Origin: Eutreptiella sp. 'Long Island Sound 2002'
Taxonomy: Eukaryota > Euglenozoa > Euglenophyceae > Eutreptiales > Eutreptiaceae
Assembly (NCBI GenBank): GCA_964036045.1
Contig: OZ038402.1
Coordinates: forward strand, 4,898,581-4,962,580
Length of the DNA stretch: 64,000 nt
Direction of reading: 5' to 3'
The translations under genes were made by a program, and so were the position numbers. This document shows positions 11,201-55,535 of the stretch, piece by piece (position 1 is the first letter of the stretch; each line of letters starts with the position of its first letter). The notes under the pieces are model-generated. The model saw only the letters and a program-made list of their open reading frames with translations, was not told where the DNA came from and made no database searches.

Positions 11201-13394
11201 ATGCATCTCAAGAACCAGGTATCCGGCAGCACGCACAGCACGCAGTGTGACCAATGGAAAAATGCACCGCCAAAACCCACGGTGCGAAACCATATGACCA
11301 CCCCTTATGACCACCCCTTATGACCACCCCTTATGACCACCCCTTATGACCACCCCTTATGACCACCCCTTATGACCATGCCTTATGACCACCCCTTATG
11401 ACCACCCCTTATGACCACCCCTTATGACCATGCCTTATGACCACCCCTTATGACCACCCCTTATGACCACCCCTTATGACCACCCCTTATGACCACCCCT
11501 TATGACCACCCCTTATGACCACCCCTTATGACCACCCCTTATGACCACCCCTTATGACCACCCCTTATGACCACCCCTTATGACCATGCCTTATGACCAC
11601 CCCTTATGACCACCCCTTATGACCACCCCTTATGACCACCCCTTATGACCACCCCTTATGACCACCCCTTATTGGATTTGGAGTTTATCAAACGAGTTTT
11701 GTGTCAGTGTTGCTTGGCCATAGAACGACGATGATCGGCACCCTCACGATTCACCCTGGTATTCCAACGGTACTTCATGTCTCACGCAGCGGAGCCGCGA
11801 CACACATCGTCCGAATTGCTTGGACAGGGGAAGGGGGAACGGGGCTACGCCCTCTCTTTCTGTGGAGTGGACTGGCAGAGTGCAGCGCAGGTGAGAGTGT
11901 TACGGGGAGTTGGCGGTGGGGGGGAAGGGAGACCGCATCACTGGCCCTGAGGGCGCTGTTCAGGACAAGAGTGACAATCGACGGGGCAGGGTAACACCGA
12001 CCAAAGATGCGGTGGGGCGCAGACAGGGGGGGGGGGCGCCCGATGACAAGTCGCAAGAAAAAAACTCCCGTTTTACAGGTCCAATGGTTTTTGCAGAATA
12101 TTAATTGCTTTTCAGATCCCCCCATAGGAGGAGCGGGGCAGCCCACCGGGGGAGCAGGACCGCCCGGGAGGGCATGGGAGGGCAGCAAGGTCGGACACCT
12201 AACCACCAGGCCGCGTCCCTCTTACCAGACCCCGTATACACAGCGTAACGGACAATAACAGCGAAGTGATGAATTGCTTTTCAGTGTCGCAACACTTTGT
12301 GTTTTGCAAAATATGTCCATTTGCTCGGTATGCCCCGTTGTATTGGGGCCGCACACAGCAGAAGCGGGCGAAGCGCCGATCGGGATGAGAGACACACGCC
12401 CAGGCGCTGTTCAGGACAAGAGTGACAATCGACGGGGCAGGGTAACACCGACCAAAGATGCGGTGGGGCGCAGACAGGGGGGGGGGGCGCCCGATGACAA
12501 GTCGCAAGAAAAAAACTCCCGTTTTACAGGTGCAATGGTTTTTGCAGAATATTAATTGCTTTTCAGATCCCCCCATAGGAGGAGCGGGGCAGCCCACCGG
12601 GGGAGCAGGACCGCCCGGGAGGGCATGGGAGGGCAGCAAGGTCGGACACCTAACCACCAGGCCGCGTCCCTCTTACCAGACCCCGTATACACAGCGTAAC
12701 GGACAATAACAGCGAAGTGATGAATTGCTTTTCAGTGTCGCAACACTTTGTGTTTTGCAAAATATGTCCATTTGCTCGGTATGCCCCGTTGTATTGGGGC
12801 CGCACACAGCAGAAGCGGGCGAAGCGCCGATCGGGATGAGAGACACACGCCCAGGCGCCGGACGTGCCCTTATGATGAAAGGGGCCAGAGAACATGTAAA
12901 TCTTTGCGATTTATTTTGGCACAACTGTCGTTTGGCGTGGATTAACGTTTGCACTGTGCAACGCTGACTGGGCTGCACCTCGTCCTCGGAGGCCCTGCAC
13001 GCAGCTGCTGGTATTTCGTGGTGGACTCTGCGCGCCACTGGCAGCCTCCGCCGTTCAATGGCCTCCTCAGTGAGAAGATTGCCACAGCGCCACGACTCAC
13101 ACACTGCATGTGTGGCCCCGCGACAGCAGGCGACCCCTCGCTCTGCCGTATGTGGCCCCAATATGACTGTGCAGTGCCCCTCGAATCCGGGACTCCGCGT
13201 ACCAAAGGCCTCCAACGCCCGCAGTTTCCTGCAATGCCCCCCGCCCCCCGCACTGCGATGTCTGAGGCGGGGATGGGGGGGGAGTAGTCACACCTGACGT
13301 CCGATGACTGTAGCGTGGGGACGAACGGTAGGCGTAGGGGCCCTTCGTTGGCCCCGTAGGAGTTCACACGGAAGGAGGGGCCTTCGCGGTCCAT
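5177..13394 (-). CDS. Potassium-channel gene, five-exon model (5' end to pore and following helix)
   Basis: Spliced model on the minus strand: 13394-13294, 10930-10759, 9006-8859, 6248-6181 and 5270-5177. All introns are GT-AG, and the phases fit at each join (2/1, 0/0, 1/2, 0/0, then 1). Exon 1 starts at ATG 13394 (MDREGPSFRVNSYGANEG). Exon 3 carries a hydrophobic helix (GLLLPVLYFVLSAGIW) and a pore helix (YFTMASLFTV). Exon 4 begins GYGDYVPRSD, so splicing rebuilds TVGYGDYVP, the potassium selectivity filter. Exon 5 supplies the next helix (IALIAGALGWLVDRF). Helix-pore-helix with YFTxxSLxTVGYGDxxP is known for two-pore and related K+ channels, which are membrane proteins that conduct K+. About 194 codons are modelled, and the 3' exons (perhaps a second pore or a cytoplasmic tail) are not securely found. 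The pore exons are the firm part; exons 1 and 2 rest on splice sites and phase. Confidence 0.75.
5578..5815. repeat. GCGCGCACTGC / GCGCGCACCGC repeat clusters
   Basis: Two clusters (5587-5632 and 5765-5808) of GCGCGCACCGCG units lie in a channel intron. Related CACTGCGTGCG units recur at 37.73, 43.01-43.05, 55.97, 56.44 and 57.63 kb, often after AACTTCGCACT or TCTTTGCACT. Confidence 0.6.
6181..6248 (-). CDS. K+ channel exon 4: selectivity filter (68 bp)
   Basis: Acceptor GTGCTCAG (to 6249) and donor GTATGC at 6180. Codes for (G)YGDYVPRSDCEKLFASVSAFLA, written here in two parts as GYGDYVPRSD and CEKLFASVSAFLA. The first two bases complete the split Gly codon from exon 3. YGDYVP is the hallmark of K+ selectivity filters. 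Confidence 0.85.
6345..6535. repeat. Dispersed repeat X, copy 1
   Basis: Shares about 180 bp with 60779-60958: AGAGGCGGTTAxACAG, then AAGCGGTTGGGGGCGGTTAC, then TGTCGGTTACAAATGC and so on to a CATCCCT end. It lies between the exons at 6248 and 8859 of the channel gene. Confidence 0.75.
6540..8850. other. Channel intron, no other gene seen
   Basis: GC-rich, with many G and C homopolymers of 8-15 bases. Long open frames occur on both strands but change frame at homopolymers and show no family motif. Confidence 0.5.
8859..9006 (-). CDS. K+ channel exon 3: first helix and pore helix
   Basis: Acceptor TTCGGCAG (to 9007) and donor GTGCC at 8858. Codes for DVDAPHRRYAQ, then a transmembrane helix, then GLRDWRPLEGVYF and TMASLFTV plus the first base of Gly. 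It stops exactly inside the selectivity filter. An unspliced read-through gives TVGATPSP, which would be non-functional. Confidence 0.8.
9145..9425. repeat. Inverted repeat with GGCTCAATTGAC arms
   Basis: GGCTCAATTGACGGG near 9148 is mirrored by GTCAATTGAGCC near 9384. The interval is A-rich and carries GCCTTCGGCGCC. A related segment (cttcggcgcc...agtatttcct...gctttttg) recurs at 10570-10625 and 54420-54470. It lies in the intron upstream of exon 3. Confidence 0.4.
10759..10930 (-). CDS. K+ channel exon 2
   Basis: Acceptor CCCCTGCAG (10939-10931) and donor GTCAGG at 10758. In the frame fixed by exons 1 and 3 it reads through WPWAGSQPWNTSFARAF and RRWLSIGVCLAEQ without a stop. The other frames are also open because the sequence is GC-rich, so the support is phase and splice sites. 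Confidence 0.45.
11026..11290. repeat. Truncated copy of the 16.83-17.36 kb repeat
   Basis: AAATGACCAGAAATCGACGG, AACCAACGCC and GTGTTGCTTG at 11038-11090, and GCATCTCAAGAACCAGG through AATGCACCGCCAAAA at 11200-11280, match the two ends of the unit at 16830-17340. The Lys/Pro-rich coding middle is missing here. Confidence 0.6.
11293..11674. repeat. 13-bp minisatellite TTATGACCACCCC
   Basis: About 29 copies in tandem, nearly perfect; three units read TGACCATGCC instead. Three more copies stand alone at 55497-55535. Confidence 0.97.
11953..12854. repeat. 451-bp tandem duplication
   Basis: Two head-to-tail copies (about 11953-12403 and 12404-12854) are almost identical, starting GGCGCTGTTCAGGACAAGAG and ending at GACACACGCCCAGGCGC. 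The visible differences are single bases (for example GGTCCAATGG against GGTGCAATGG). The 83-codon open frames inside repeat with the same 451-bp offset and are not evidence for a gene. The near-identity points to a recent event. Confidence 0.95.
13294..13394 (-). CDS. K+ channel exon 1 (start codon)
   Basis: ATG at 13394-13392, open for 33 codons plus AG, followed by donor GTGTGA at 13293. The two leftover bases join the T that opens exon 2 to give Ser. The composition is soluble, as expected for a cytoplasmic N-terminus. Calling it the first exon is inference. Confidence 0.45.
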
Positions 13395-38244: not shown

Positions 38245-39282
38245 ATGTTGGTTGCCTTTGTTGCGTCCCCTATATCCAACACTTCGATGATGGCACAGAA
38301 GGACAGGTCATGTGGGAGGTTAGCCATGCGGGACATCTCTCCCTTGCCCTTCGGGCTTGCTTTCACTGCGTTTGCTGCCTCAGGTTCTCATATGCAGGAC
38401 CACACGAGAGTCGCCAGGTATTGGGGTTACCACTTACTCTCCAGCTCTCCGGACACCAAAGCTGGTGTGGCTTTACTGGTCCACACCTCGATTTCTCCCA
38501 ACAAACCGTCTCTCCGCATACACATCGCAGGCAGACTGATTTCCTGCCAGTTGTCCCTGCACACGGACCCGCTACTGCCCCGGGTTACAGTTGCCTCTTT
38601 CTACGGCCCGCATACCTCCAAGGAACGCGTCCCTTGTGAGAAGCACCTCGATCCGCTAACCAGAGAGTGTGCGATTCTGTTAGGTGATTACAACGGCGTT
38701 ACTAGAGCCTCTCACACCACCGCCCTGCAAGCCAACATATGGCCTTGGCTTGTAGCCAAAGAGCGCTCAGGTGCTCTAGCAGACCTACTGGCCCCACACT
38801 TCCCAGACACACCCTACACTAGAGTAAGGCGGTACCACGGCACCAAGAGTTACATCGACAGGGCCTACGATACGCGCACTTTTGCTGCCCTTTTCAAGTC
38901 GACGGACGCAGCGGTCCCTGACTTCGCCAAGGTGACTGGGGTCCAGGACCACGATCCCATCCTAGTACACACTGTGCCATGGACGAACCCGCACATGCCA
39001 GGACCCAGGTGCGCAATGTGGAATAGGCGAGACGTACAGAGGTATCAGCAACGGATGAGCCAATTGATGCGTGACTTGCCCATCTCACACGTTGCGGATG
39101 AGGTAGAGGCCACTTACTCGGCTGTCACCGCGCACATGCTTACTGCCATGCGCGAGACGAATGAAAAAAAGCAGCCCATCGAAAGGAAACCCACACACGT
39201 AGCAGCCAAGCAGACCAAGCGCCGCTCCAAAACTTTCTTCCGCCGCGTCAAACACACACTACTCACACCCCCCGCACAGTGA
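38245..39282 (+). pseudogene. LINE-1 endonuclease domain
   Basis: Frame of 345 codons. Motifs of the APE family: MQDHTRVARYWGYHLLSSS...KAGVALLVH, ILLGDYNGVT (GDFN-like), KSYIDRAYDT and VQDHDPILV (final SDH-like box). The enzyme nicks target DNA to start reverse transcription. The start before MQDHTR looks shifted, so the N-terminus is uncertain. After the TGA the same frame is open for 39 codons, to the C run. Confidence 0.8.
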
Positions 39283-39401
39283 ACCCTCCCAGCCCCCACA
39301 CGCAAAATACAACGCATCCTCCAAAGAAACACGCCCTGGTCCTCCCATGCCCTCGATCTGGTACCACCACGACCAGTTGCCCCTGACCCCCCCCCCCCAC
39401 A

Positions 39402-41360
39402 GTGCAAGAACTCAGGTCTCTGGCACGCGCCCCCAGAAAAAAATCGCCTGGTCCTGACGGTGTTCCGCCCTACCTCATCGCCTCACTGCCCGATCCGGTT
39501 TTCGCTGTTATACATAAATGTATTGTACTGTGTTATACGTCCAGCCACATACCACACCAGTGGCTTGTATCCGAGACGTTTTGTCTCTTTAAAGGGAAGG
39601 GACAGTGGCAGGATCCCGGTAGGTGGAGACCCATCGCGATGAGTAACTCCATCTACCGCCTACTCATGCGTTGGGTGTATAAAACCCTGTACCCGATACT
39701 AGCCCCCCACCTCCGCTCTCGACAGTTTGGGGGCCGCCAAGGCTCCTCTACAACTCATGCCACCCAGGTATTTCTAGACGACCCAGACAAACTGACTGAT
39801 ACGGAGGCCGTACTAGCGTTTGATGTGTATCATGCCTTCGACAGCCCCCCGAAATACCTCATCCACCACACAGTGCAACGAATGGGCACACCGGTCAAGC
39901 TACTGCTCTTAATCACACTGGTGCTTGAGCAGGGTGCTACATTCATTCGCGGTGCTGAGGATGTGGTCTTCACCACCAACCATGGGGTAAAACGAGGCTG
40001 CCCCCTATCCTGTTTCCTCTTTGTAGTAGTTTTCGACATTCCCTTGCGGTATCTTGAGCAGAAGGGGGTTACTTTCTCTGCGTACGTCGACGACATAGCT
40101 TCCCCTGTGCCTCGACAGTGTAGGCAGTCCAGGGCATCTTTAGTTCAGCACGCCCTGAGTCTGATCGCTTGCCAGGTAAACGCCCTTAAGAGCGAATCCC
40201 TCCAAGTAGGCAACAAACCGCCCGACCTTCCCACCCTCCCCAAATACTACCAACCGCCTTGCCCAGTGCAGGCTGAAGGTGCCTCAATCTTGCGGTGTGT
40301 GCCCGCCGAGGAGCCGCCTCCGTGGAGTGACCAGGTTGCATGCTCCTTCTCCCGCACTGCATGCCTCATGCACTTAGGACACCCCCTGCCAGCGAAATTT
40401 GAGATACACACTGCAGTTACGGTCCTGCTAAATGAATTACGTTCACAACTAAATGAGCTCCACAACCAGCCAATTCAAGTTCTGGATAGGGTTTTGCTTG
40501 TGAACTCCATGGTTCTGCCCCGCCTCCTGTACCGAACTGAATGCATCCCACTGACGGCGGACCAGTCCATGTCCTTCACACGGACCCTGGAGCGCTTTAT
40601 CTTTGGGGTAATGGGGCTGCCACTGACGATTGCCCAGAAGACCCTCTACTCACATCGCTCCCACGGCCTGGGATTGGGATACTTTCCTGTCCTACACCCC
40701 ACCAGAGTCCTGGATGTCCTACATCGCAACAACCACCTATCCACACTCTCCACTACCCCCCGTCTGTCGATGTCACCATACAACTTATTCATGTCCTCTG
40801 TGTCCAAGTTTAAAACATCATCCTCGACGGTGGTCCCCCTAGATGTCTCGTGGAAAGGCGCCAAAATGGCCAAGAACGCTACGTCAGTCGTCAGCTTTGC
40901 GGGCCTCACAGTATACTTACTGCCCTCGTTGCATAAACCGAATGATACGTACTCCGATGGCAGCAAAATTGGGTCCCCACCCGCAGCAGGAGCCGCAGCA
41001 CTCCTTTCTACAGGAGAAATCGCTGTATGCAGGGTACCTGGCATCCCGAACTCGTACAAGGCAGAGCTGGTTGGCATCCTGCTGGGCTCCCATCTCTCTG
41101 CAGCAGGGGAAAAAATAAAACTGGATTGCCAAGGGGCCATCGCCTCAGCGACGGGAACCAAACGGCCTGTCAGACAAGCGACGTGGGTGCTACGAGTTCG
41201 ACAATCCATCCGGGAAAAAGGACAGACCTTGGAGTGGGTGGAAGGACACGTAGGACACGAATACAATGAGGTCTCAGATGACTTCGCTAAACAGGGCTCA
41301 ACACTGCCGCGTCCCCCCAGTCAAGGCATCGTCCGTCTGGGACATTATCCGTCATGGTGA
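39402..41360 (+). pseudogene. LINE-1 reverse transcriptase and RNase H
   Basis: About 650 codons. RT blocks: KSPGPDGVPPYLI, GRWRPIAMSNSIYRLLM, VLAFDVYHAFDS (Asp), GVKRGCPLSCFLFV, FSAYVDDIASP (catalytic YVDD). RNase H: YSDGSKIG, SYKAELVGIL, KLDCQGAIAS, NEVSDDFAKQG - all four acidic residues are present. It copies the element RNA at the nicked target and removes the template. The apparent start is GTG just after the C run; the true protein continues from the endonuclease. Confidence 0.9.
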
Positions 41361-46254: not shown

Positions 46255-46436
46255 AAGTGCCAGGTGTGGTCATGGAATGACAGAGATCAGGTGTGGTCAT
46301 GGAATGACAGAGATCAGGTGTGGTCATGGAATGACAGAGATCAGGTGTGGTCATGGAATGATAGAGATCGGGTGTGGTCATGGAATGACAGAGATCAGGT
46401 GTGGTCATGAAATGACAGAGATCAGGTGTGGTTAGT
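46255..46436. repeat. 27-bp minisatellite
   Basis: About 6.5 units of AGGTGTGGTCATGGAATGAC plus AGAGATC. All three frames are open because 27 is a multiple of three. It lies about 270 bp downstream of the original carboxypeptidase stop. Confidence 0.95.
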
Positions 46437-46702
46437 GTGGCTGTCGAGATGGCGTACAATGACTGCAACCCAAACTGTTGGCTATCCACTTTGTATGAGC
46501 GTTGCCTCGCCTCTTCCCTCCCTCTGGCAGGAGAGGACATCAGTCACTTTGCTACGTGGGGCAAGTCGCTGCAAGCACGGTTTTGATTGATTACACCTTG
46601 CAGGGAGGGAGGGTAGGGTGCATACAGAGTGATTGGCTGTTCAGGGTTACTGTCTGTGACTAAAACTGCTATGGACTGCCATTTTCAGGTCGATGTCACA
46701 TG

Positions 46703-46722
46703 CCCTTGGTTTTGATCAAATA
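46703..46722. repeat. Target-site duplication, left copy
   Basis: CCCTTGGTTTTGATCAAATA, identical to 50963-50982. On the minus strand it codes YLIKTKG and is followed by ATG and TGA, the original end of the carboxypeptidase gene. Confidence 0.93.
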
Positions 46723-47172
46723 TTTTTTTTTTGATCAAAAAGGCCAGTTCATAAGTGCCAGGGGCCACAGTGGACCAAGTTCGAAGTAAGATACAGATTT
46801 CGGCGAAGCCAGGGTATGCATACGGGCTGCAGCTCGTGACTGTGCCCCCATGGTTTCCCATTGAGGTTGGTGTAGTCATGTCATTGGTACTTCCCACTCA
46901 TTTGGGTCCCAGTGCGTTTTGTGGCGTTTCGGTAGCGGTTGTAACGGGACTTCCCACAAGGTGGGGTCCCAGTGCTCCCGCGGCCGCTTCCGTATCAGGT
47001 ATATTGTCTGTCGGGCTGGTCGGGTTGTTTGCCAGTATTGTGTTGTCTTGTGTTTGCAGGCGTCTTGGTAGTACTGTGCCATGGCAGTCAGGTGTGTCTG
47101 CTGCTGCCACATGTAGGTCGCTTGTTGATGGTGCAGGTCAAGTAGCTTGTCAGTGCCTGCGCTCAGCCTCCA

Positions 47173-50112
47173 CTATCGGTCGTTGACCATCAGTAGCAGT
47201 TTTGCGTCAGCGTACCACATCCTTGTGTCGTCCTTCGCTTGTTCGTACCATTGCCTACGTATTTGGTATAGGTGTGCATGTGTGTCGTGTAGTCGTTGTG
47301 TTTGTCTCTGTTGGTCGACTAGTTTTATGACAAGCCTGTGGTAGTCTGTTTTAGCCGTCAGTGCGTTGGTGTAGCCCATGTGTAGGGTGTGCAGGTGCTG
47401 TCTCGCCATCGCCTCCATGTGTGCTTTGTGGTATATGTCCCGTGCTTGCTGAGCGTGTTCATTTGCCAGCCTGTCTGTGGTCGTCTTGTACTGTTCCCAC
47501 CGCTGTGTGTCAACGTTGAGGCGCTGACGTTTCTTTATGTGGTCGTCTGCCCCTGTGTTAGTTGCTTGTGCGACGAACCATGCCACTGCACTATCGCCCG
47601 CGTTGCGTGCATCTTGTAACCATTGGCCGGGATTGATTGGGTCAGCCGTTGCGACCTCGGCCTTACGTTTGCGTTTCGCGCCGCACCACGTGGGCGCCCC
47701 GACGTGGTTCCGTAGGTTTCGGGGCGTTTCTCGCGGCGGAAGTGCCTGTGCCATGTATTTGGTGAGCCACAGGGGCGACGGTGGTTGTTGTGGTGTTGGG
47801 TCGGCGTACTTCTGTCTTAGTGTTTGGACGGACTGTATCATGCGAAACTGGAACAGGCCCACCTCCGTTCGCAGTTTGTGTCGTTCCGCAGTGGGTATGG
47901 CGTCGACGAGGGATAGTGGTATGAGCAGCCTGACACAGAGCCATAGTTCTTGGTTGTCGGCCGCTTGCAGCCATTGGTGCGTGTATGGGGCCCAATCAGT
48001 CCAGCTCTTGCGCCACAGGTCCCAGAAGTCGCTCCAGGCAGGACAGTAAGCCAGTTTTGACTGCACCGATGCTCCGTGTTGGTGGCCACACTGGGAGCAG
48101 AGGCGGGGTGTCCGTTCCCAGGGGGCGCCCATTCCCCACCAACGCACTTGCCCCCACAGCCAGGGTGTCCACGCGTTCCGTCTGTAGTGCTTCATGGGGA
48201 GCCAGCTCACCCAGTGTACGTCTGGTGTTTGTTTTTGTCTACGCACTTGCATGATCCATGCCTTGGCAGGCGTGGGCATGATCTGTCCTGTGATGACAAT
48301 ATCATGGGGTTGTGGTTGTTGGGAATCCATGGGCAGGTTGTCGCCCATATTGGCGAGGACGTCAGAGTGGTTGTTCCCCTGTATGTCCTGGTAGTCTTTA
48401 TACGTGGTGGCTTGTTCTAGATTGCGGTGCCCTGGTGTCCATCGGATCGTCAGTCGTTTCGTGGTGGAGTTGAGGTACCCTATGTCGCGGTAGTCCTGGT
48501 CCTTGACCACTCCTTTGCGTTTTATAGGTGTGGCCTTCACCACACTCTGGTTGTCTAGTATAATGTCGTCTCCTGGCTTGGCCAGCTCTGAAGCTAAGGC
48601 GCAAGCGATCGTTTCGGCCCGATAAACCTGTTGTGGCCCGTGCACCCGGAAGGCCGCACGGTATGTTCCGTTGTAGATGCCCCCTCCCGCTCGTCCGTGT
48701 CGTTTCGACCCGTCTGTGTACCACCGGGTGGTGGTGGGTTCTCCTGTGTAGTGTATGGTGATTCCGTGGAGTTTTTGCTGGTGGGGGAGTGCCTGACAAA
48801 CCTCATGGGTTTCCTCAGGGGTTGGCTCCTCTGGAGGGTTCATCCAGCTGTAGTCTAAGTGGTTGGTAGCTGGCCGTGTCTTCCCTGCATGCGTCTCCTG
48901 GTCCTCCTCTGAGCTCTCCGAGTCGTAGAGTCCCGCGGACAAGGGTCGGTGTTGTCGGGGTTGGGATATACGCTGACCCACCGTGCCCCCTAGGGCTCGG
49001 ACGGCGTCTATGTATTTATATTGGGTTGCGGTGAGTTGTTGTGTAGGGCCGGTGCGCTGCAGTTCCTGTTGGCCAATTGTGACCCACCGGGTGATGTAGG
49101 ACCACCACAGCTGGCGTAGGCCAAGACCCCCGTGACTGAGGTTGGTAGTCAGCCGGTGTTTGTTCATTTGTTGTTCTACCCCGGGTGTATCCCTGATGAA
49201 CTGCAGCAGTATGTCGTCCCAGTGCGCCATTCGTGTCCTATTTCCGAGGAACAGTCCCCTGTACGTCCAACGGGGGATAAGGACGGCGTTGATGATAGCC
49301 ACCTTTTCGTAGGCGTTGAGCGGCAGGGTCCTGTATGCCGCTACGTCGTGGTGTAGCTGTGTAGTGACCATGTCCCATGCTGTGTCTTCTTGTGTGGGGT
49401 GGGCAAGCACATGCCCCAGGTAAGTCATTATAGGTGGCCGCACGGGGATGAGCTGATGCCGCCACGTGATGGGCGTTAGGTCGTAGTCCTTAGCCCAGTG
49501 GCACACTTCAGTTTTGTCCTTGTTGAAGCGTAACCCCATTGTGTGGGCCACGTCGTGGAGGGTATCCAGGGTGTGCAGCAATGCTTCCTTCGTGGGCGCA
49601 CGCACAGCTATGTCGTCAACGAACACGTACAGTCGGGCTCCCGGGCATCGTTCCATGGTTTCACGTAATAGTATGTCGTAGTATAGGAGAAAAAGTGTTG
49701 GGGAGAGGGGGCACCCCTCCTTCATACCCCTGGTGGGTCGTATGGGTAGGTCCTTTCCGTGTAGGGTTAGTACGGCCGGTGTATGCTGGTATATTTCCCC
49801 CAACATTTGTATGATGTTTTCTGGTGCCCCTGCCTCCTTGACGATCCCAGTCAGCATGGGTCGGGGGACTGAAGGAAAAGCTTTGGCCACATCAAGTAGG
49901 GCCACGTACCCGTCCTCAACGTGCAGGTCGTTTAATAGTTTCGTGGCTAACGTTGTGGTGTTTCGGCCCTGTGTGGCGCCGTGTTGTATGTCCAATAGTC
50001 CCGGGGTCAAGGCCCCCGATATACGCGTCAGGAGGAGGCGTGTGAGTATACTATATATGGCCGTGGATACGTAGATTGGCCGGTAGTTTCGTGGGTCCTG
50101 GGGATCCTTCTG
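47173..50112 (-). CDS. LINE-2 reverse transcriptase, RNase H and C-terminal domain (5'-truncated)
   Basis: The frame is open from about 50112, so RT begins at DPRNYRPIYVSTAIYSIL; the first Met is at 50010. RT blocks: GATQGRNTTTLATKLL, VALLDVAKAFPSV (Asp), RGMKEGCPLSPTLFLLYYD, LYVFVDDIAVRAP (VDD). RNase H: RWYTDGSKRHGRAGGG, VYRAETIACALA, DIILDNQSVVKA, GNNHSDVLANMGD. A Cys/His cluster (LCSQCGHQHG...YC) follows near the middle, then a Gln/His/Arg-rich helical C-terminus to the stop at 47173. No stop or shift interrupts about 980 codons, so the copy is young. It cannot act alone without the missing endonuclease and start. Confidence 0.92.
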   Translation of the reverse strand, partial: QKDPQDPRNYRPIYVSTAIYSILTRLLLTRISGALTPGLLDIQHGATQGRNTTTLATKLLNDLHVEDGYVALLDVAKAFPSVPRPMLTGIVKEAGAPENIIQMLGEIYQHTPAVLTLHGKDLPIRPTRGMKEGCPLSPTLFLLYYDILLRETMERCPGARLYVFVDDIAVRAPTKEALLHTLDTLHDVAHTMGLRFNKDKTEVCHWAKDYDLTPITWRHQLIPVRPPIMTYLGHVLAHPTQEDTAWDMVTTQLHHDVAAYRTLPLNAYEKVAIINAVLIPRWTYRGLFLGNRTRMAHWDDILLQFIRDTPGVEQQMNKHRLTTNLSHGGLGLRQLWWSYITRWVTIGQQELQRTGPTQQLTATQYKYIDAVRALGGTVGQRISQPRQHRPLSAGLYDSESSEEDQETHAGKTRPATNHLDYSWMNPPEEPTPEETHEVCQALPHQQKLHGITIHYTGEPTTTRWYTDGSKRHGRAGGGIYNGTYRAAFRVHGPQQVYRAETIACALASELAKPGDDIILDNQSVVKATPIKRKGVVKDQDYRDIGYLNSTTKRLTIRWTPGHRNLEQATTYKDYQDIQGNNHSDVLANMGDNLPMDSQQPQPHDIVITGQIMPTPAKAWIMQVRRQKQTPDVHWVSWLPMKHYRRNAWTPWLWGQVRWWGMGAPWERTPRLCSQCGHQHGASVQSKLAYCPAWSDFWDLWRKSWTDWAPYTHQWLQAADNQELWLCVRLLIPLSLVDAIPTAERHKLRTEVGLFQFRMIQSVQTLRQKYADPTPQQPPSPLWLTKYMAQALPPRETPRNLRNHVGAPTWCGAKRKRKAEVATADPINPGQWLQDARNAGDSAVAWFVAQATNTGADDHIKKRQRLNVDTQRWEQYKTTTDRLANEHAQQARDIYHKAHMEAMARQHLHTLHMGYTNALTAKTDYHRLVIKLVDQQRQTQRLHDTHAHLYQIRRQWYEQAKDDTRMWYADAKLLLMVNDR

Positions 50113-50117
50113 ATTCG

Positions 50118-50512
50118 TGCTGACCAGCAGCGGACAGCACAGGACAGCCAGACAGGAATGTCATATATGGCCCCAACCCGGCCATCAACAGCGCGGGGCC
50201 AGACAGACAGGCAACGGGCTGCGAAGGCGACAGGCCGTGTGAACGTGCCCGCCTGCCGACCATGCGTGGGGATGGCAGGCGCTACTGGCACCTACCTGGC
50301 TGGGCCCTTGGCCACCGCCTACTCTCCCGCTCTACACACCGGTGTGGGCGCGCTCGACGCCCCCGGTGACGCCCAGTCTGCTGACCAGCGACAGGCAGTA
50401 CACGATAACCAGACAGGAATGTCATATATGGCCCCAAACCGGCCATCAGTACGCGGGGACGCCGCGCAGGTCCCGACCGACGGGCATCGGACTGGACAGG
50501 CACCTGCGACAA
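50118..50512 (+). promoter_or_regulatory. LINE-2 5' monomers (261-bp direct repeat), candidate promoter
   Basis: TGCTGACCAGC at 50118 and 50379, and CCAGACAGGAATGTCATATA at 50148 and 50409, recur with the same 261-bp offset, so one full and one partial monomer precede the ORF. Tandem 5' monomers act as internal promoters in mouse L1; a promoter role here is inference. The SYMAP-type open frame through this part is probably not translated. Confidence 0.5.
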
Positions 50513-50962
50513 TGACCAGAATACACGCATTTCCTGGATCAGATCCCTTCGTGCTATTGCCACAGTATCGTGAGGAACCCCCCTACCCCTCGGGACACCC
50601 CCCCCCCCTCATGGGAGAGGAACTGCCTTGCGACCCACCATCTAGGCAGGCACCCCCCAACAATCGACGACACCCCCCCGCCCTCATTGGGTTGTTGCGG
50701 GACCGCACGGTCGACGGTGATATCGAAAAGAACCCGGGGCCTGAAGATGCGCAGACCACAGGGAACGACATCCCCCCCGAGCACAGAGAGATGGTCACCC
50801 GGCTGGCTAGCGAGATCGAAACGGCCTCCAACCCCCACTACCCCGCTAAACTATACAAATACGCGACACAGGCACTCACGGAGGCACTGCAAAAAAAGCG
50901 ACGCGCATCCACCCCTCCCTTAGGACACAACACACCCGCTCCATGTGCAGAACCGTCTACCA
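50513..50962 (+). CDS. LINE-2 N-terminal ORF with 2A ribosome-skipping peptide (3'-truncated)
   Basis: From ATG 50513 (MTRIHAFPGSDPFVLLPQYR) a Pro-rich leader of about 65 residues leads to LIGLLRDRTVDGDIEKNPGP (2A core at 50713-50742). The D(V/I)ExNPG-P consensus is complete; in known 2A peptides the ribosome skips the bond between Gly and the last Pro. About 73 residues follow (DIPPEHREMVTRLASEIETA; LYKYATQALTEALQKKRR) before the element is cut at the target duplication. N-terminal 2A peptides are known from trypanosome L1Tc/ingi and some animal APE-type LINEs. Beyond 50962 the open frame is only the antisense of the carboxypeptidase gene. Confidence 0.75.
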
Positions 50963-51933
50963 CCCTTGGTTTTGATCAAATAGTCAAGGCCGCCGACGAC
51001 ACAGGCAACTTGTGCCTGGTTACATTGCTCGTCGGTGGCGTTCGGGCTGTCGGGGTACACCTCGGTCGTGGCGGCGTACTCCGCATTCGTCACCCCGGCA
51101 CACAGCCCGAGCGCGCTCGGCTTGGGCACGGCGATCACCCCCTCCTGGACCACTTTCTCACCGCTGATATTGCCGTCCGCGTCGGCGGGGGCAATGTGCG
51201 TCACCTCCTTGACCGCCGCAATCATGGCACGGTGCCACTCGGGCTGCAGGTTGGGGGCGTCGCCAACGAGGTAGAAGCCGTCCGGGATGGTCCCGGGCTT
51301 GTGCTCGACCCCGTCACGCGCCGCTTTGGCCGGCCTGAATTCCGTTTCATCTGTGTCAGTCGTCTCGTGCAGGTCCACGTGGCAGAGCCACTGCTCCACG
51401 CCGAGCGACTTCAGGTAGGCAATCAAGTTGCGGGACTCGTCGGTCGCGGCCTCGGGGTTGAAGCTGCGGCCGGGGACCACCTCTCCCTCAGGATTGAACG
51501 AGCGGTTCGGGTCGACCGCGTTTGCGTTCCATCGCTGGATTGTCTCGTAGCCCCACGGCGACACGCACGGCGCAACAATAATGTTGAACTGTTCTGCGAA
51601 CTTCGGTGCCATCGTGCGAAGGAAGAGGATTGCGCCCTGGACCCCCGAAGTCTCGTAGCCGTGGACCCCACCGGTCACCAGGACGTGCGGCCGGCCAGCG
51701 TCCCATCCTCTGAGCTTCACTGCGAACAGAGGGTAACGCGATGGATCCTGCCCCAGTGCACCGTACTGCACGAGTTCAAAGACCCCGGGGCTTTCCTTCT
51801 CGAGCTGCTGCAACTTGTCCACGACCTCCTCCTTATACGAACGCTGGACTTGGCGAGAGGCGCGCCATTCCTCCCTCTCTTTCTCCCCCCAGGCAGTCCC
51901 CGGGGTGCCGATCGGAAACGGTTGTTGCACCAT
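50920..51933 (-). CDS. M14-type zinc carboxypeptidase, C-terminus altered by LINE-2
   Basis: Single frame of 337 codons from ATG 51933 (MVQQPFPIGTPGTAWGEKER). M14 metallocarboxypeptidase features: zinc motif H91-x-x-E94 in GGVHGYETSG, substrate-binding Arg in VDPNRSF (R144), third zinc His in CHVDLHETT (H185/H189), and catalytic Glu in AATTEVYP (about E291). Such enzymes remove C-terminal residues from peptides; no signal peptide is seen. The last native residues are GGLDYLIKTKG; LINE-2 entered here, so the present frame runs 13 more codons (GRRFCTWSGCVVS) into the element, where the original had Met-stop. All catalytic residues lie upstream, so activity may be kept, but the 3' UTR and polyadenylation site are now 4.2 kb away. 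No introns are seen. Confidence 0.88.
   Translation of the reverse strand: MVQQPFPIGTPGTAWGEKEREEWRASRQVQRSYKEEVVDKLQQLEKESPGVFELVQYGALGQDPSRYPLFAVKLRGWDAGRPHVLVTGGVHGYETSGVQGAILFLRTMAPKFAEQFNIIVAPCVSPWGYETIQRWNANAVDPNRSFNPEGEVVPGRSFNPEAATDESRNLIAYLKSLGVEQWLCHVDLHETTDTDETEFRPAKAARDGVEHKPGTIPDGFYLVGDAPNLQPEWHRAMIAAVKEVTHIAPADADGNISGEKVVQEGVIAVPKPSALGLCAGVTNAEYAATTEVYPDSPNATDEQCNQAQVACVVGGLDYLIKTKGGRRFCTWSGCVVS
50963..50982. repeat. Target-site duplication, right copy
   Basis: Same 20 bases as 46703-46722. It lies in the carboxypeptidase frame as YLIKTKG. Confidence 0.93.
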
Positions 51934-52139: not shown

Positions 52140-52490
52140 TGCCGACATACAAAAGTTTGCACCAGGGCGGTCCTTAACGGAAAAAAAAGTTTTCCCGGAC
52201 ATGGGCGGGCACTACATGTGTTCAACCATTGGTCGCCAGCCCTTTATGTCTTCACCCAGGGGGTCCCAACTGTTCAACCATCAGTTTCTAGCCCCAAATG
52301 TGTGCAATCACGCAACCATATGATCGTGGACCCACATGTGTTCAGTGATAGCATCCGAACTCTACCTCACACCCTGCACAATTGAACACGAACGGGAGCA
52401 ATGTTTTCTTTCATCGAATGCATTGACACAGCGTTGACAACCCGAATGTTCCATCGCTGGTGGCACAGCTGAAAAGAAACTCTCTACAAC
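52140..52490. other. No gene recognised
   Basis: AT-richer sequence between the carboxypeptidase start region and the SAP-domain ORF. It could hold the promoter of the former, but no motif is evident. Confidence 0.4.
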
Positions 52491-52498
52491 CGGTACAA

Positions 52499-52876
52499 CT
52501 ACCGGAAGTGCACCGTGACACGCTCCCTAAGCTCACCCTTCGCCCCGTTGACACTCAAACCATGCTTCCTACAAATGGCCTTGAACTCAACTTTAGTCCA
52601 CTTATGCATATTGCCCCTCTCCATTGCCTGCAACACCACCTCATTCACATCACACGCGAACACCAACTGCGAGGTAGGGTTAGAGGAGGTAGAGGGAACA
52701 GCTAGTGGGTTATGAAGGTCAAAAGAGGAGCTACTGGCGACTTCACCCGGCTGGTCCAAATCCTCGTTACTATCCTCGTCCTCACCCCCCAACCCAACCT
52801 TTTTTTTTTGACAACTCCAAAATTTCATAGAGTACTCATGGGCAACTCCGGCATAAGATACAGTGGATCCCCGCAA
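52499..52876 (-). CDS. SAP-domain-like ORF
   Basis: Minus-strand frame of 125 codons. The C-terminal 36 residues (HKWTKVEFKAICRKHGLSVN, then GAKGELRERVTVHF) fit the SAP helix-turn-helix pattern (L-K-x-x-C/L-x-x-x-G-L-x-x-x-G-x-K-x-x-L-x-x-R), a DNA-binding module of chromatin proteins also found in transposon-encoded proteins. It is preceded by an acidic Ser/Asp linker (GGEDEDSNEDLDQPGEVASS). The N-terminus may continue in an upstream exon, since the first 20 residues start abruptly. Could be a host gene or a mobile-element protein. Confidence 0.5.
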   Translation of the reverse strand: MRGSTVSYAGVAHEYSMKFWSCQKKKVGLGGEDEDSNEDLDQPGEVASSSSFDLHNPLAVPSTSSNPTSQLVFACDVNEVVLQAMERGNMHKWTKVEFKAICRKHGLSVNGAKGELRERVTVHFR

Positions 52877-55496: not shown

Positions 55497-55535
55497 TATG
55501 ACCACCCCTTATGACCACCCCTTATGACCACCCCT
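55497..55535. repeat. TTATGACCACCCC, three stray copies
   Basis: Exact units of the 13-bp minisatellite at 11293-11674, 44 kb away. Confidence 0.9.

Follow-up and report, generated by a model that had tools for sequence, protein, structure and literature searches.

Can the altered end of a peptidase gene be attributed to a single retrotransposition event, and what has become of the gene that received it? The question is raised by a 64-kb stretch of contig C25 (hereafter the window), for which a preliminary description had proposed that a LINE inserted into the last codons of a carboxypeptidase gene, leaving an intact 20-bp target duplication and exchanging one residue of the protein for a foreign tail.

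Target-site duplication and empty site

The duplication is exact. Two copies of CCCTTGGTTTTGATCAAATA, without a single difference (0/20), lie at 46703-46722 and 50963-50982 and enclose an insert of 4,240 bp; allowing as many as 3 mismatches revealed no further site elsewhere in the 64 kb, and 100 shuffles searched at the same tolerance gave a mean of 0.01 matches, with two matches in none of them. The host gene, of M14/AstE-AspA-like type, is intronless and lies on the minus strand (50965-51933), where codons 1-323 are retained and run into the duplication. On this strand the gene-side (right) copy codes YLIKTKG in frame, continuing from ...GLDYLIKTKG into the insert-derived residues GRRFCTWSGCVVS and a TAA stop, and the distal (left) copy reads YLIKTKG-Met-stop, both as originally described. 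The native Met-stop falls within 12 bp past the distal copy (46691-46702, minus strand). A tandem array of a 27-bp unit (6.4 copies, 46261-46432) lies ~270 bp from the distal duplicate.

When the gene and the stretch upstream of it served as query, the genome (2.28 Gb, 2,205 contigs) yielded one further gene copy, at C15:14503787-14505441 (L047), with 94% identity over the query; 40 of 2,186 candidates were scored, and the other 38 matches cover the upstream repeat only. That repeat (52163-52600, upstream of the peptidase) has at least 38 further genomic places at 81-87% identity, and overlaps a 125-residue ORF with a SAP domain (52499-52876, minus strand). The ORF of L047 is database protein P0001, with 325 residues ending in LEYLIKTKGM, and its locus presents, in order, 12 bp identical to the distal flank in the window, a single copy of the 20-bp sequence, and the gene at 94% identity. 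The arrangement predicted by removing the insert and one duplicate, with its YLIKTKGM end, is present in L047, and a single TATTTGATCAAAACCAAGGG would represent the pre-insertion state of the 20-bp duplication. Past these 12 bp, homology stops and the 3' flanks of L047 and the window are unrelated, so that L047 is a paralogue rather than an allele, and no witness for the native 3' UTR of the window gene. A second, 23-nt copy of the gene end is present in L047, 277 bp away (L047 1212-1234 and 1489-1522).

Anatomy of the insertion

The insert encodes a reverse transcriptase (RT) domain (PF00078, E 6.3e-20 in the window ORF), has no long terminal repeats, and is bounded by the target-site duplication and a 3' A-tail (A10 at 46723-46732, T10 on the plus strand). 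Its endonuclease part was not copied, and a family member (P0135) possesses PF03372 (E 4.3e-10). By these features the insert would be classed as a copy of an APE-type non-LTR (LINE) retrotransposon. The earlier identification of a LINE insertion is thus sustained by RT domain, duplication and A-tail, but the insert is not a simple LINE end, being 5'-inverted, internally deleted and, in all probability, twin-primed. Read along the gene strand, it consists of 847 bp of ORF1 in inverted orientation (50116-50962), a 4-nt filler (GATT, 50112-50115) that fits the native continuation of neither piece, and 3,389 bp on the minus strand (46723-50111) comprising ORF2 from the RT motif KDPQDPRNYRPI to its end, the 3' UTR and the A10 tail. 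The plus strand of the 847-bp piece carries an internal part of ORF1 in sense orientation, with 97% identity to protein P0144, 94-99% identity to 39 other scored copies, and a 2A/StopGo octapeptide, DIEKNPGP, at 50719-50742; since the RT piece reads on the minus strand, it is the gene-side piece that is inverted relative to the rest.

Both breakpoints can be located by comparison with other copies. The RT piece has at least 37 other genomic places at 97-99% identity (38 of 1,857 candidates scored), 36 of which match over the full length, starting within ~6 bases of the distal end of the insert and stopping at 50111 or 50109. The remaining place, on C1, appears in four rows, and this copy (G000:C1:14811473-14816448) contains a 530-bp segment of ORF2 four times head to tail. 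Past the breakpoint at 50111, native sequence continues colinearly in 29/29 fetched copies, mostly as TCTATAAAA followed directly by AGAAGG, where the window has GATT and then CGTGCTGACC. At the outer breakpoint, CCGTCTACCA is followed by CACATGG in three relatives versus CCCTTGG, which belongs to the duplication, in the window; past this point the native ORF1 reads CACATGGCACATTGG in the three copies read. We rejected the possibility that the inverted piece reaches the 5' end of the RNA at its inner end, as P0144, L045 and a copy on C11 all show an internal position.

The C11 copy is flanked on both sides by a 13-bp duplication, GTTTTTCAGAAGG, and spans ~14.0 kb, a working figure, given that truncation of this copy too is conceivable and that comparison with other copies covers it from 2.3 kb onwards. 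The window pieces correspond to C11 positions 17534207-17535052 (ORF1 piece) and from 17541183 onwards (RT piece), such that the window insert lacks ~6.1 kb between the pieces and 3.6 kb further 5'. Both pieces occur within 21 kb of each other in 9 other listed copies, colinear in 9/9, and the window alone has one inverted. A 15-16-bp duplication bounds a further sister copy, an ordinary insert truncated at its 5' end, and no clean duplication was found for the L007/L032 copy, or for L002 with L031 alone. L031 was considered as a 5'-truncated copy and rejected, as ORF1 resumes 10.2 kb from its RT piece; that copy probably holds a nested insertion. No Rfam family was detected at the gathering score, no tRNA was found, and the element was not found outside its own genome in viral, genome-contig or plasmid sequence collections.

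Abundant near-identical copies are a classic source of misjoins, and an assembly or scaffolding chimera of unrelated LINE pieces might be suspected here. However, a misjoin would generate neither an exact 20-bp coding duplication at both ends nor an A-tail placed directly at one of the copies, and we regard this explanation as highly improbable.

Shared subfamily and age of the two pieces

In nine copies that could be compared for both pieces, the window departs from the majority at 19 RT and 5 ORF1 positions. The window states are shared at 10 RT sites by L002/L055, and at 7 each by L013/L063 and L026/L065, all three pairs also sharing 2 ORF1 sites; L016/L056 and L014/L061 share 1 RT site each, and L011/L067, L009/L045, L010/L033 and L020/L039 none, with no ORF1 site shared by any of these six. 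Sharing is therefore concordant between the pieces in 9/9 copies, and the closest fetched relative of both is the same copy on C3 (0.80% divergence for RT, 0.94% for ORF1). As only two ORF1 sites are informative, this evidence reaches as far as one subfamily, not one molecule: it shows, at the level of sequence comparison, that the two pieces share a subfamily, as would be expected of one RNA.

Private changes point to a recent event. The RT piece has 7 private substitutions in 3,379 bp relative to 29 copies, and a private 3-bp deletion at 47588. One of the substitutions (C at 47173, versus G in 29/29 compared copies) creates a nonsense codon, TAG, in ORF2 (47173-47175, minus strand), beyond which the next in-frame stop lies at 46876-46878. 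The ORF1 piece has 3 private substitutions in 847 bp, the same number against 14 copies as against 16. The total of 10/4,226 (~0.24%) is an upper bound, because some of these changes may predate the jump. Between the window peptidase and its paralogue, 19 codons with a single, synonymous change were counted over 227 synonymous sites, to the exclusion of three multi-change codons, giving pS of 0.084 (0.0836) and pN of 0.015 (0.0148). Set against 8.4% synonymous divergence, ~0.24% private change indicates that the gene had duplicated long before the element inserted. The disruption had been presented as dated; the dating is relative only, and places the insertion within a small fraction of the estimated age of the gene pair.

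A history in two steps is conceivable, whereby an ordinary LINE insertion was later subject to inversion and internal deletion, or to a nested second insertion at its 5' end. Internal rearrangement does occur in this family, as in the C3 copy, where 10.2 kb rather than ~6.1 kb separates the ORF1 piece from the RT piece, and in the tandem ORF2 segments of the C1 copy. Yet a later inversion would have had to end by chance exactly at the target-site duplication, a nested insertion should have bordered the inverted piece with a duplication and tail of its own (no such pair was found in the repeat listing), and the pieces share the same subfamily variants and similar levels of private change. We consequently view a two-step origin as very unlikely.

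Mechanism of insertion

Our favoured reading, to which we assign a probability of about 0.92, is a single recent insertion of a LINE of at least ~14 kb by target-primed reverse transcription with twin priming. Under this model, the endonuclease would nick the antisense strand within the final codons of the gene, and the freed end would prime cDNA synthesis on the A-tail of the RNA, of which 3.4 kb would be copied, as far as the RT domain. Following a second nick, the sense-strand overhang ending ...CCAAGGG-3' would anneal imperfectly to an ORF1 site, CACAUGG, on the same RNA molecule, where it would prime a second cDNA of 847 nt. The two cDNAs would then be end-joined with 4 filler nucleotides, and the ~6.1 kb of intervening RNA would remain uncopied.

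The proposed annealing involves pairing at 5/7 positions, including the 3'-terminal base, although the next base mispairs and strict microhomology is 1 nt. Further observations run counter to twin priming or temper the comparison behind it. The ~6.1-kb gap between the cDNAs is large beside the positions reported for many inverted human L1 inserts (see below), and none of the 9 listed copies is inverted; and the empty site is represented by a paralogue at 94% identity, whose far side matches over only 12 bp, as the 3' flanks of the two loci have nothing in common.

An unusual feature of the target is that the native 3' end of the element, GGCCTTTTTGATCAAAA, shares 11 nt with it, TTTGATCAAAA (46723-46747 versus 50970-50988). 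Only 22/20,000 random 20-mers from the window (0.11%), a sample that includes stretches of the element, reach at least 11 nt. However, the flanks of 28 other parsable copies (L002 was unparsed) share just 3-6 nt with the element, so that there is no targeting rule and target choice by homology was rejected; the shared 11-mer is either a coincidence or a one-off priming aid.

Fate of the peptidase gene

The host ORF is a zinc carboxypeptidase of AstE-AspA type (PF00246, E 3.4e-08; PF24827, E 9e-07). Codons 1-323 are unchanged and codon 324, which spans the junction, still encodes Gly; the insert contributes the third base of this codon, the 13-residue tail and the TAA (50920-50962, minus strand). 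The peptidase thereby loses its final Met and gains 13 residues and a stop, antisense to ORF1 of the LINE, in agreement with the replacement first proposed. Residues 1-324 are retained with the HGYE, HVDLHE and TTEVYP motifs intact, as expected from the earlier view that the catalytic core was spared, and the H and E residues of these motifs are present in 120/120 aligned homologues (the best 120 of 7,999 scored). Named homologues include several from algae, among them Cymbomonas, Prymnesium, Coccolithus, Emiliania, Skeletonema and Seminavis, which makes it probable that the host genome is itself that of an alga. The new tail, whose presence in homologues would have spoken against an insertional origin, occurs in 0/120 of these best-scoring homologues. 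Between 4 and 26 residues follow the GLDYL column in 118 of them and more than 200 in the other two; given this variation, tail length alone is uninformative, and it is the tail sequence and the paralogue that carry information.

As regards the transcript, the RT part of the LINE lies on the gene's own strand, and we infer that transcription must either terminate within the LINE or cross more than 4 kb to reach the former 3' flank. The suggestion that the native 3' UTR was moved by 4.2 kb holds for the old end of the gene, which is now 4.26 kb downstream, but the identity of the native UTR is read from the window locus by itself.

Could the gene instead be a dying pseudogene, in which the insertion is one symptom of decay and not a tolerated change? 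Three residues at nearly invariant sites lend this idea some substance: among 119 other homologues, the position of P227 is occupied by T in 108 and P in 0, that of S257 by I in 116 and S in 0, and that of A288 by T in 111 and A in 4. Against this, the frame is open, the three motifs are intact, and pN/pS between the paralogues is ~0.18, albeit that this ratio mostly reflects time before the insertion; moreover, unusual residues occur in the paralogue too (G at 200 and V at 288). Decay appears to us doubtful, if a good deal less so than the rearrangement and misassembly scenarios above. Most likely, the product would still fold and act as a peptidase while bearing a short foreign tail, and its transcript would have a changed 3' UTR, any damage probably being buffered, as the gene is one of two paralogues.

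The parent element

The element from which the insert derives may be more unusual than the insertion itself, on account of four serial 2A-type motifs in ORF1. These octapeptides occur in the order DIEKNPGP, DVEPNPGP, DTEPNPGP and DVEPNPGP (C11 copy; clusters P0144, P0150 and P0155). ORF1 of the C11 copy is broken by frameshifts and stops, and the length of ~2,000 residues is that of an assembly from overlapping ORFs, with no single intact copy. ORF2 possesses a hydrophobic N-terminus followed by a degenerate DVHPNPGH. A published 2A core is (D/G/C/N)(V/I)ExNPGP, with DLTxDG described for one upstream group (PMC12846837). DIEKNPGP and both DVEPNPGP motifs fit this core, and DTEPNPGP and the ORF2 motif do not; residues upstream of the fitting ORF1 motifs (e.g. 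DVTSDG) resemble the DLTxDG group described in that source (PMC12846837). We therefore class the ORF1 motifs as putative 2A/StopGo-type sequences, three of them with a fitting core. ORF1 also contains a RING-like cysteine cluster, which scores below the Pfam cutoff (zf-C3HC4_3, E 0.0012, 19.1 versus 27 bits), and nothing in the ORF1 stretches tried scored above Pfam cutoffs. Picornaviruses with several 2A sequences have been described (PMC11512398), while the papers listed by searches of one open-access library included none on a LINE with several 2A motifs in one ORF1, which is not proof of absence.

These observations raise the wider proposition that a giant LINE family, with a ~14-kb copy bounded by target-site duplications and an ORF1 of ~2,000 residues with four serial 2A/StopGo-type motifs, has recently been active in this 2.3-Gb genome and can make twin-primed inserts whose second priming site lies more than 6 kb upstream of the stop of the first cDNA. 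We consider the chances of this proposition to be even. If true, twin priming would be an option of LINEs with long target-site duplications generally, as opposed to something peculiar to the elements of vertebrates, and an inverted ORF1 could supply, from its antisense strand, a new end to a gene.

Other repeats populate the window. A second LINE remnant (38245-41360, plus strand) has RT and RNase H domains and shows ~22-32% identity to RT proteins of the insert family and its distant relatives. The 13-bp unit TATGACCACCCCT forms a 29-copy array at 11293-11672 and a 3-copy array 44 kb away (55497-55535), and a 451-bp unit is present as two 99% identical tandem copies at 11952-12858.

Comparison with known systems

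Judged from sequence, the event is of a known kind: a resolved, recent, twin-primed LINE insertion that re-terminates one of two peptidase paralogues. Its value is that an uninserted paralogue and a long relative bounded by its own target-site duplication serve as references for all of its junctions, and it offers a clean example of a mobile element re-terminating a gene whose catalytic core is kept. It also adds a case of 5' inversion far from vertebrates, although we do not claim the first outside animals; the papers listed by searches of one open-access library included none on twin priming in algae or plants, which again does not prove that none exists.

For the peptidase, the closest solved relative is a REP34-type zinc carboxypeptidase (PDB 4oko, E 3.1e-91, residues 6-320); the alignment stops short of the 13-residue tail, to which nothing in that protein corresponds.

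The insertion resembles 5'-inverted inserts of human L1, as these are characterised in two studies, in its 10-20-bp class of target-site duplication, its A-tail, its inverted 5' piece primed internally on the RNA and its non-inverted 3' piece (PMC4245944, PMC12016303). Most 5'-inverted L1 inserts are reported to have duplications of 10-20 bp (PMC4245944), and in 46% (132/287) of inverted human L1 inserts one cDNA is reported to end within 20 bp of where the other starts (PMC12016303). In the cell-culture system of one study, inversions are recorded only for human L1 in human cells, save for one Nimb-2_DR insert (PMC4245944). Unlike human L1, the LINE described here would be at least ~14 kb long, and its two cDNAs lie ~6.1 kb apart on the RNA. 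This distance is about the whole length of a human L1.

In known 2A-bearing LINEs, the motif is found at the head of the RT-bearing ORF. The present element, a LINE with RT and exo-endo-phosphatase domains and 2A-like motifs, is like the non-LTR retrotransposons with 2A-like sequences described from trypanosomes and sea urchin (PMC4981915), but differs from them in its four serial 2A octapeptides and sub-cutoff RING-like cluster in ORF1, and in the degenerate state of its ORF2 motif.
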